Below are positions 24,591 through 27,348 of a stretch of DNA of 35,242 bases, in pieces. The notes under the pieces were generated by a model. It did no database searches and was not told where the DNA came from. It saw only the letters and a program-made list of their open reading frames with translations. The number at the start of each line of letters is the position of its first letter. Within the stretch, counting starts at the first letter, position 1. The stretch is from Chlorobiales bacterium. Lineage in GTDB: Bacteria; Bacteroidota; Chlorobiia; Chlorobiales; JACMJS01. The position numbers and the translations under genes were made by a program. The DNA is taken from assembly GCA_014380515.1 (NCBI GenBank), contig JACMJS010000272.1, positions 1 through 35,242 on the forward strand. Direction: 5' to 3'.

Positions 24591-26075
24591 ATGCCAAACC
24601 ATACGAGCGTCGTCATCTTCGGCGGCAGCGGCGACCTGACCAAACGCAAACTCATTCCCGCCCTTTACAGCCTCGCCGCCCGCGGCATGACCGACAAAAC
24701 TTTTTCCATTATCGGTTTCGCCCGCACCAAAAAATCAGACGATGCGTTTCGCAACGATCTCACCAAAGCCATCCACGAATTTAAAAAAGATGTGAATGAC
24801 GCGGTGTGGCAATCGCTCCTGAAAAACATTCACTACGTCTCCGGCGGCTACGGCGACGCCGCCGCACATCAAGCCTTGCACCAAAAAATTGCCGAGATCA
24901 ACGGCGTGGCGGCGGAAGAAGTAAACACGCTCTATTATCTCTCGACGCCGCCCGAAGAATTTCAAAATATCATTGAACAACTGGGCGCGATCTACAACCG
25001 CGCCAACCGCCGCGAAGACGTCTATCGCCGCATCATCATCGAAAAACCGTTCGGCTATGATCTCGCTTCCGCCGTGCACTTGAACGACATCCTCGCTACC
25101 TATTTCCGCGAGCGCGATATTTTCCGCATCGATCACTATCTCGGCAAAGAGACGGTTCAAAACGTGCTCGTCTTCCGGTTCGCCAACGCGATCTTCGAGC
25201 CGCTGTGGAATTCACGGTTCATCGATAACATTCAGATCACGGTCGCTGAGGATATCGGCGTCGGTAGCCGCGCGGCGTACTACGATAAGTCGGGCGCACT
25301 CCGCGACATGATCGAGAACCACATTTTGCAAGTGCTCAGTTATGTAACGATGGAAGCGCCCATCGCCTTGACGGCGGATGCGGTTCGGGATGAAAAAGTC
25401 AAACTCTTGCGGTCGGTGAAAATTTACACGCCGGAACAAGCGAACGGCAACAGCGTGCGGGCGCAATACTCAGGCGGCGTTGTGGATGGCGAGAACGTCA
25501 AAGGCTACCGAGAGGAAGATGAAAGCGTGAAAGATTCACAGACGGAAACGTACGTATTGTTGAAACTGGAAATTGATAATTGGCGGTGGTTCGGCGTGCC
25601 GGTTTATGTGCGCACGGGGAAACGCATGACGAAACGCGCGACGGAGATCTCCGTTGCTTTCAAAGCCTCGCCTTCCGTGCTCTTCAATGCCGGTGCGGAT
25701 CAAACGCTGGAGGAAAACGTGATTGCGATTCGCGTGCAACCCAACGAAGGCATCTCGCTGCTTATCGATGCGAAAGTGCCCGGCGGTACGGCGACGGAAA
25801 TCAAATCGGTGCAGATGGATTACCGCTACAAAGAAAACTTTCAGCGCGATACGCCCGAAGCCTACGAACGGCTCTTGCACGACGCCATGACGGGCGACCC
25901 CGCGCTCTTTATTCGACGCGATGAATCCGAAACCGCATGGCACATCGTTGAACCCTTTCTCACCGCATGGCAACAGCCTGAAGCTCCGCTCTACACCTAT
26001 CCCGCAGGCACGTGGGGACCGAACGAAGCCGATGAGTTGATTCACCGCGATAACCGGCACTGGCACCGTGTTTAA
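24591..26075 (+). CDS. zwf: Glucose-6-phosphate 1-dehydrogenase
   Basis: 494 residues, the usual size. It oxidises glucose 6-phosphate to 6-phosphogluconolactone, making NADPH in the oxidative pentose phosphate pathway. The dinucleotide-binding motif GGSGDLTKRKL is at 11-21, EKPFG at 151-155 and the substrate and catalytic signature RIDHYLGKE at 179-187. The C-terminal domain ends NEADELIHRDNRHWHRV. The ATG at 24591 puts the nucleotide motif at the expected distance from the N-terminus; the open frame further upstream runs through a terminator and a repeat. No gnd or pgl gene is adjacent. Green sulfur bacteria often lack a full oxidative pentose pathway, so its presence hints at a more heterotrophic or aerobic relative, which is inference. 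Confidence 0.95.
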   Translation: MPNHTSVVIFGGSGDLTKRKLIPALYSLAARGMTDKTFSIIGFARTKKSDDAFRNDLTKAIHEFKKDVNDAVWQSLLKNIHYVSGGYGDAAAHQALHQKIAEINGVAAEEVNTLYYLSTPPEEFQNIIEQLGAIYNRANRREDVYRRIIIEKPFGYDLASAVHLNDILATYFRERDIFRIDHYLGKETVQNVLVFRFANAIFEPLWNSRFIDNIQITVAEDIGVGSRAAYYDKSGALRDMIENHILQVLSYVTMEAPIALTADAVRDEKVKLLRSVKIYTPEQANGNSVRAQYSGGVVDGENVKGYREEDESVKDSQTETYVLLKLEIDNWRWFGVPVYVRTGKRMTKRATEISVAFKASPSVLFNAGADQTLEENVIAIRVQPNEGISLLIDAKVPGGTATEIKSVQMDYRYKENFQRDTPEAYERLLHDAMTGDPALFIRRDESETAWHIVEPFLTAWQQPEAPLYTYPAGTWGPNEADELIHRDNRHWHRV

Positions 26076-26117: not shown

Positions 26118-26175
26118 CATGTCATTCCCGCCATGCGAAACTTGTTTCGCTAACGCTCAAAGCGGGAATGACATG
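26118..26175. repeat. gtcattcccgc inverted-repeat element, family C copy 1
   Basis: Perfect 14-bp arms catgtcattcccgc (26118-26131) / gcgggaatgacatg (26162-26175) enclose an inner perfect hairpin gcgaaac-tt-gtttcgc (26135-26150). It fills most of the gap between zwf and the next gene. The inner gaaac/gtttc hairpin resembles the inner hairpin of family A copy 1. Confidence 0.85.
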
Positions 26176-26208: not shown

Positions 26209-26787
26209 ATGAAAACATCAACGAAAATTATCATCGGCCTCATCGTGCTTGCGGTTGTGCTCATCGGCGGCTGGTGGATTTATTTTACCAACTTCACCGG
26301 ACGCACGGCCTCGCGCTACTTGGGCAAAGAATACCGGCAGCGGATCGAGTTGGATAACGCGGTGGAAGTCGTCAGCGTCGCCTTTCAAGGCACGGACGAC
26401 CGCACGAACACGACGAAACTCATCACCTACAAAGCCCTCGATGGCTATGTCTATACCGAAGAATACCGCGACCTCTCACCGCTTACGGGCGCGGTGCGGT
26501 GGCTCCCTTACGGCAACAAAGAATATGCGCCGAGTTGGTACCGCTCGCGCCGCTTCACCCGCATCTTCGGCGGTGTGATTGATTATGAGTTGCCGCAAGA
26601 CTGCGCGACGGTGATGAGCGTCTCCGCGATCAAAGACCCCGACCCGAACAAAACCGCATACATCAAAAATCTCGTCTACCGCTCAACATCCGGCACGGTG
26701 CTTTCAAAAGAATACCGCGACGGCTTCATCGACCGCGCCTTCGAGGGCTGGCTCGAAATCAAAGTGCGCGATGAGAATGTGAAGTAA
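26209..26787 (+). CDS. Membrane-anchored protein of unknown function
   Basis: 192 residues. One N-terminal transmembrane segment (about 7-28, IIIGLIVLAVVLIGGWWIYF) precedes a soluble domain of about 160 residues that is probably outside the cytoplasm. The domain contains two related stretches, LITYKALDGYVYTEEYRDLS and an echo near the C-terminus, LVYRSTSGTVLSKEYRDGF, which may mark an internal repeat. The charge pattern and Arg/Tyr content suggest a beta-rich fold. I do not recognise the family. The downstream ORF6N gene starts 15 bases after its stop, so the two are likely to be on one transcript. Confidence 0.7.
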   Translation: MKTSTKIIIGLIVLAVVLIGGWWIYFTNFTGRTASRYLGKEYRQRIELDNAVEVVSVAFQGTDDRTNTTKLITYKALDGYVYTEEYRDLSPLTGAVRWLPYGNKEYAPSWYRSRRFTRIFGGVIDYELPQDCATVMSVSAIKDPDPNKTAYIKNLVYRSTSGTVLSKEYRDGFIDRAFEGWLEIKVRDENVK

Positions 26788-26802: not shown

Positions 26803-27348
26803 ATGGCGACGAAAAAACTTGCAATACCGACGGAGCACATCGCTCGCTCGATTTACTTTCTGCGCAGTGCGAAAGTGATGCTCGATTCCGATCTTGCCGC
26901 CCTTTACGGCATTTCGACCAAACGCTTCAACGAACAAGTCAAGCGCAATCTTGAGCGTTTTCCGCCTGACTTTATGTTTCAACTCTCGAAGGAAGAATAT
27001 GAAAACTTGAGGTCGCAACTTGCGACCTCAAGTTCAGGCTACGGTGGACGGCGATATTCGCCTTACGCTTTTACCAAACTCGGCGTAGCGATGCTTTCAA
27101 GCGTGTTGAACAGTCCGAAGGCGATTGCGGTCAATATCGAAATCATGCGGGCGTTCGTCAGACTGAGGGAAGTGATGGCGACGCATAAAGATTTGGCGCG
27201 GAAGGTGGAAGCGTTGGAGCGAGAAGTCAAAGACGACCGGCAAGAAAATCAAGAAAAGTTTGCCGCGATCTTTGAAGTCATTCAGCAACTTATCGAGGCT
27301 CCTGAACCGAAGAAATCAGAGATGGGTTTCCGGCCTGAGAAATCTTGA
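26803..27348 (+). CDS. ORF6N-domain protein
   Basis: 181 residues. The ORF6N domain (about 9-95) is clear: IYFLRSAKVMLDSDLAALYG, then TKRFNEQVKRNLERFPPDFMFQL, and YSPYAFTKLGVAMLSSVLNS followed by MRAFVRLREVM. A coiled coil follows (about 120-165). ORF6N proteins are found on phages and in many bacterial chromosomes and are thought to bind DNA; their cellular role is not settled. A perfect 31-base inverted repeat lies within the coding sequence at 27004-27034, in the stretch where family members vary most. Upstream neighbour is a membrane-anchored unknown 15 bases away. No phage genes surround it. Confidence 0.9.
   Translation: MATKKLAIPTEHIARSIYFLRSAKVMLDSDLAALYGISTKRFNEQVKRNLERFPPDFMFQLSKEEYENLRSQLATSSSGYGGRRYSPYAFTKLGVAMLSSVLNSPKAIAVNIEIMRAFVRLREVMATHKDLARKVEALEREVKDDRQENQEKFAAIFEVIQQLIEAPEPKKSEMGFRPEKS
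27004..27034. repeat. Perfect 15-bp inverted repeat with one-base centre inside the ORF6N gene
   Basis: aacttgaggtcgcaa (27004-27018), centre c, ttgcgacctcaagtt (27020-27034). It encodes N-L-R-S-Q-L-A-T-S-S in frame. Thirty of 31 positions pair, which is far beyond what codon bias would produce. Confidence 0.9.

Follow-up and report, generated by a model that had tools for sequence, protein, structure and literature searches.

The analysed window is a stretch of 35,242 nucleotides from a contig of a Chlorobiales bacterium. Within it, a perfect palindrome, AACTTGAGGTCGCAA-C-TTGCGACCTCAAGTT, lies in frame inside an open reading frame of 181 codons (Table 1). Its 15-bp arms are 100% complementary and flank a 1-nt centre at 27019, the first position of codon 73, and the dyad encodes residues N68–S78. 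The chance expectation for perfect palindromes of this design (15 bp, 1-nt spacer) is about 3e-5 per 35 kb. The product matches the Pfam ORF6N profile PF10543 with 118.1 bits at a cut-off of 27.8 and is a member of this family, which confirms the original prediction of a perfect 31-base palindrome within an ORF6N coding sequence. The Rha profile PF09669, which represents the family of HK022 Roi, reaches 20.9 bits, under its cut-off of 29.9, and the protein is not a member of that family. The Pfam profile matches of the product include no replication, nuclease or recombinase domain. The ORF6N profile finds a single gene in the genome, and no second copy of the palindrome is present in its 3.57 Mb at up to 3 mismatches; as the sole copy, the gene itself is the only full site in the genome. 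On the minus strand, a scan flags this dyad as resembling a terminator. Another perfect inverted repeat, with 14-bp arms (CATGTCATTCCCGC) and a 30-nt spacer, is located at 26118–26175, in the gap between the gene that ends at 26075 and the one that starts at 26209.

Table 1. Features of the ORF6N gene and its palindrome (window coordinates).
Feature	Position	Strand	Basis
ORF6N gene, 181 aa, presumed reader of the palindrome	26803–27348	+	ORF list; PF10543, 118 bits; single in genome
ORF6N DNA-binding domain	26848–27105	+	Pfam profile match on genome
Codons 39–48, predicted recognition helix with K40, R41, E44, R48	26917–26946	+	AlphaFold2 model; columns covary with palindrome bases
Codon E44; family code gives G at offset 4 (27015, mirror 27023)	26932–26934	+	Glu-G 48/50, Gln-A 62/63, Lys/Arg-C 16/16
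Codon R48; family code gives C at offset 3 (27016, mirror 27022)	26944–26946	+	Arg-C 130/130, Asn-A 4/4
Palindrome, presumed operator; arms 27004–27018 and 27020–27034, centre 27019	27004–27034		Exact dyad; family-wide; sole genome copy at up to 3 mismatches
Codons 81–85 (GGRRY), covarying with offsets 8 and 10; possible DNA-contacting wing	27043–27057	+	Covariation; weaker, codons adjoin palindrome
Codons 105–164, long helix, possible dimerising coiled coil	27115–27294	+	AlphaFold2 model; role inferred

The dyad recurs across the ORF6N family. The fair sample consists of 65 non-redundant ORF6N domains from the phylum of the window, one further phylum and three viral contigs, all fetched by Pfam or protein match and never by the palindrome. 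A strong dyad, defined by a score of 9 or more, occurs in 85% of these domains, nearly always at the same codons, compared with 1.3% when synonymous codons are permuted within the gene and 0.8% when codons are drawn from a pool. In homologues from the same order and on viral contigs, compensated arms of other sequence occupy the same site, e.g., AAACTTGAGGTTCCAAATTGGAACCTCAAGTTT and TATTGAAGTCGAAATTTTCGACTTCAATA. The original prediction had proposed to align ORF6N genes at this point and had named an isolated accident as the opposing view; the alignment reveals differing inverted repeats at the same place, and the frequency of the dyad argues against an accident. It had also described the encoded residues as variable. 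The arms do vary, but the peptide is a recurring LR/KSQ-x-A/VTS motif, which is the family's way of encoding the dyad. Loci found by the palindrome pattern add many other phyla, among the matches listed. In-gene copies occupy the same codons in an almost always identical reading frame, and among the relatives compared neither a clean insertion boundary nor a site-less close relative was seen. The family itself is patchy, and its members are often present in several copies and often decayed.

Two variants of this arrangement were observed. A distant ORF6N-like gene (L009, 3703–3727) carries the palindrome in a different reading frame (VEVANCDLN), as would fit conservation at the DNA level rather than the peptide level. 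In loci L012, L014, L101 and L268, one ORF6N gene contains a tandem pair of ORF6N-type palindromes, and the loop after the LRSQ motif is longer.

The bases of the palindrome follow protein residues encoded outside it. For 134 non-redundant genes, the base at each offset from the centre was compared with those protein columns that lie outside the palindrome. The column equivalent to E44 matches the base at offset 4 and that equivalent to R48 the base at offset 3, almost without exception (Table 1, counted by base). Whole helices read out as words, each with its half-site: KR--E---R goes with GTCGCAA, KV--Q---R with GTCACAA, KN--K---R with GTTCCAA, KY--R---R with GTGCCAA and KR--E---N with GTCGAAA. 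Both half-sites obey the code in 47 of the 49 fairly sampled genes and, among the matches listed, in 79 of the 85 pattern-found genes. The helix of the window protein reads K40 R41 F N E44 Q V K R48 and its site is GGTCGCAA, as the code predicts. The usual protein–DNA contacts include Gln-A, Arg/Lys-G, Glu-C and Asn-A, and the pairs E44/offset 4 and R48/offset 3 correspond to such recognition contacts. In the left arm, offset 4 falls on the third position of a Ser codon, where TCG and TCA are synonymous, and this base tracks the residue in the helix: with Glu it is G in 47 cases and A in 2, with Gln it is A in 63 and G in 1. Coupling between protein positions is no explanation for this match. 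The GGRRY residues covary with offsets 8 and 10; because their codons adjoin the palindrome, the argument relies on the helix and less on this motif. The computation supports residues equivalent to K40, R41, E44 and R48 as those which probably specify the bases at offsets 3–8 of each half-site.

A tree of the genes was built without the specificity columns; it is short and many of its branches are unsupported. Residue and base shift jointly on this tree, which carries 48 changes of the residue, 47 of the base and 48 of the combined state. Of the contrasts on supported branches, all 12 (6 Glu/Gln, 4 Lys-Arg/Gln, 2 Lys-Arg/Glu) run in the expected direction and none in the opposite one; with certain random pairings, a single Glu/Gln contrast out of the six is without a difference. 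One genome has ORF6N genes of four types; their helix/site combinations are also four, and each gene matches its own. The fit of each site to the protein of its own gene, as predicted from these comparisons, is well supported.

The AlphaFold2 model of the window protein (mean pLDDT 87.7) contains a helix-turn-helix at residues 28–35 and 39–48, with K40, R41, E44 and R48 on the second helix. Residues 68–78, encoded by the palindrome, comprise a helix end and the least confident stretch of the model (block mean 69). Such a loop suggests that this part of the gene may have freedom to function as DNA. No sequence relative was found in the PDB, and the fold search gave Dachshund/Ski as the nearest match, which is weak (E 0.16), with nothing at E 1e-3.

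The reading that we favour, with good confidence, is that the palindrome acts as an operator of the ORF6N protein inside the codons of its own DNA-binding domain and is bound by this protein, most likely for negative autoregulation. The physical binding of the protein to its own coding sequence is the part that we strongly infer. Negative autoregulation is the simplest use of such a site and, taken alone, is likely. In this mechanism, a dimer would sit about 215 bp into the gene that encodes it, each subunit on one half-site. The bound protein would limit its own transcription, either as a roadblock to the elongating polymerase or by blocking initiation nearby, and the resulting feedback loop would not depend on the promoter. 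The mode of regulation can be no better than guessed, since a scan found no recognisable promoter just 5′ of the window gene. The helix codons and the operator are only about 60–90 bp apart, so they would move and recombine together, and this joint inheritance would allow frequent changes of specificity without breaking the self-recognition. For a family that is patchy and often present in several copies, the in-gene place would also make this control independent of promoter context.

The upstream region is the expected place for a repressor site, and the copies found there count against autoregulation, as they are rare and often misfit the residue of their own gene. Any strong upstream palindrome is present in 9 of the 64 fairly sampled genes, four or five of these looking ORF6N-like. 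The upstream sites of Gln genes have 10 A and 6 G, and those of Glu genes 6 A and 5 G. As upstream palindromes are few and of mixed specificity, a promoter copy as the general looping partner was rejected. Locus L127, a single case from a selected sample, has lost its in-gene dyad and carries a fitting site 82 bp 5′ of the domain; compensation of in-gene loss by an upstream site was rejected as a general reading, as it relates to this locus and this sample. Our guess is that the upstream sites may serve other ORF6N proteins.

Such mixed specificity, suggesting that copies may read each other, is also one of the points in favour of a different use of the bound in-gene site, namely in replication, in recombination or in the recognition of one copy of a mobile gene by another, by analogy with lambda O and the origin within its gene. 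This use would draw on the same evidence of binding (dyad, code and tree) and would suit the patchy, multi-copy and often decayed family. It is nevertheless unlikely, as the product has no replication, nuclease or recombinase domain and the genome has one site only.

The level at which selection acts was addressed by the pairing statistics of 168 unique in-gene sites. Watson-Crick pairing is kept at offsets 2–13 in 84–100% of genes, most positions with several pair types, and declines to about 60% at offsets 14–15, 26% at 17 and 14% at 18. The dyad, judged from this pairing, is about 27–31 bp in extent. An mRNA hairpin controlling translation, decay or termination would agree with the strong RNA folding of the arms and with the terminator-like match on the minus strand. 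An RNA stem is expected to tolerate G-T mismatches, but at offsets 1–13 they number 17 against 51 A-C, with no preference for G-U, counts that are supporting evidence only because amino-acid constraint shapes some of them. The innermost A:T pair, which is unable to form across a 1-nt RNA loop, is retained in 81% of sites, the bases track the residues of a DNA-reading helix, and the dyad has no Rfam match. The hairpin, one of the ideas of the original prediction, is accordingly disfavoured and very improbable. The terminator reading was rejected, as the sites are symmetric and family-wide with variable flanks. Selection of the site as duplex DNA is well supported by these patterns, and the suggestion made from the first reading of the locus, that selection acts at the DNA level through autoregulatory binding of the gene by its product, gains strong computational support; differing repeats do recur at the same place.

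The pattern search lists at least 179 palindromes, of which at least 103 are in ORF6N genes, 23 upstream and 5 downstream of them, and 48 have no ORF6N gene detected nearby. The last group includes some clusters, intergenic phage sites and decayed copies. Similar palindromes outside ORF6N genes, some of them clustered or in phages, would be expected if a mobile palindromic repeat or a recombination site had landed in these genes by chance. Such an origin has very little probability in view of the same codons, the almost always same frame, the covariation with the helix and the single copy in the window genome; the latter also leaves the earlier idea of a recombination site without support. That conservation of the peptide LRSQxATS produced the dyad, this motif being encodable as a palindrome by chance, has a negligible probability, as the motif is conserved in the family but the synonymous nulls are far below the observed frequency and the synonymous Ser base tracks the helix residue.

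Several of the sites without an ORF6N gene deserve a description of their own. A phage helicase-like gene carries an in-frame ORF6N-type palindrome reading FLKSQFATSK (L184, 1721–1743; L177, 6500–6522). A 58%-identical relative has FIRERFRNKK there, and its equal length indicates that the palindrome arose by substitution, not insertion. Rows of ORF6N-type palindromes with LRSQ-like or EVANCDL-like readings occur in L053 (near 3295), L138 (near 6416) and L095 (near 1384), and no intact ORF6N gene was detected near them. In a 176-kb viral contig, a palindrome is located between two genes, just before a likely ribosome-binding site (L007, 10889–10913); no ORF6N gene was found in the examined stretch around it. 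The phage collection holds relatives at E 1e-8 in only 4 records.

In-gene dyads are also present in related families. They occur in 48% of KilA-N genes (n=29; synonymous null 3.4%) and in 38% of Rha genes (n=37; 1.9%), percentages that are rough, as some genes are near-copies and the reading frame used was the longest one at the match. These dyads have their own centres and recurring coding positions, which differ from the ORF6N type. For Bro-N (n=8) the in-gene dyads are suggestive only. Examples of such palindromes are TTTAATTCCATCGAATTCGATGGAATTAAA (KilA-N, L324) and TTCACTGAGCGCAATTTTGCGCTCAGTGAA (Rha, L342); own kinds are further seen in KilA-N loci L302 and L325, Rha loci L288 and L341, and Bro-N locus L299. 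ORF6N (PF10543) belongs to the Bro/KilA-N network of DNA-binding domains from phages and viruses. We give slightly better than even chances to a general rule for this network (ORF6N, KilA-N, Rha and perhaps Bro-N), in which a palindromic target lies in the codons of the same domain. The rule would describe a portable, self-addressed feedback unit, spreading between genomes and quickly changing its specificity, with a code readable from sequence. Where a cell has several related copies, these may also recognise one another's upstream sites.

ORF6N proteins are widespread, and for most members the gene sequence alone now provides a predicted site and a residue-to-base code. The arrangement suggests how a regulator can often change its specificity yet keep its target, as the reader and the target are co-inherited within about 100 bp. 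It also calls for caution, since codons seemingly conserved for the protein (LRSQxATS) may be kept largely for the DNA.

In the literature searched, which covered few subscription papers, no reported DNA site or in-gene operator of the ORF6N family was found, and searches on the sequences and in-gene operators of these families returned nothing relevant. Clerget and Boccard are said to have described in 1996 (J Bacteriol) that Roi of phage HK022 binds a sequence inside the roi gene, adjacent to an IHF site. Such own-gene binding resembles the ORF6N case, but Roi belongs to another domain family (Rha-type), its gene has no palindrome of score 7 or more, and we know of no family-wide site or residue-base code for it. 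The lambda O protein binds origin iterons inside gene O and initiates replication at these repeated sites. As in ORF6N, the sites are in the coding sequence of their reader and the two are linked; ORF6N differs by one long dyad in the codons of the DNA-binding domain and by the lack of replication evidence. Autoregulated helix-turn-helix repressors act through dyad operators, including intragenic ones as in gal. ORF6N genes have two properties of an intragenic operator, a DNA-level dyad within the gene and a site fitting the specificity of the encoded protein. The palindromic operator, the helix-turn-helix dimer as reader and the feedback control are shared with such repressors, as predicted on the ORF6N side. 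Unlike the operators of these repressors, the ORF6N site overlaps the codons of the DNA-binding domain, is found at a constant position in many phyla and coevolves with its reader.
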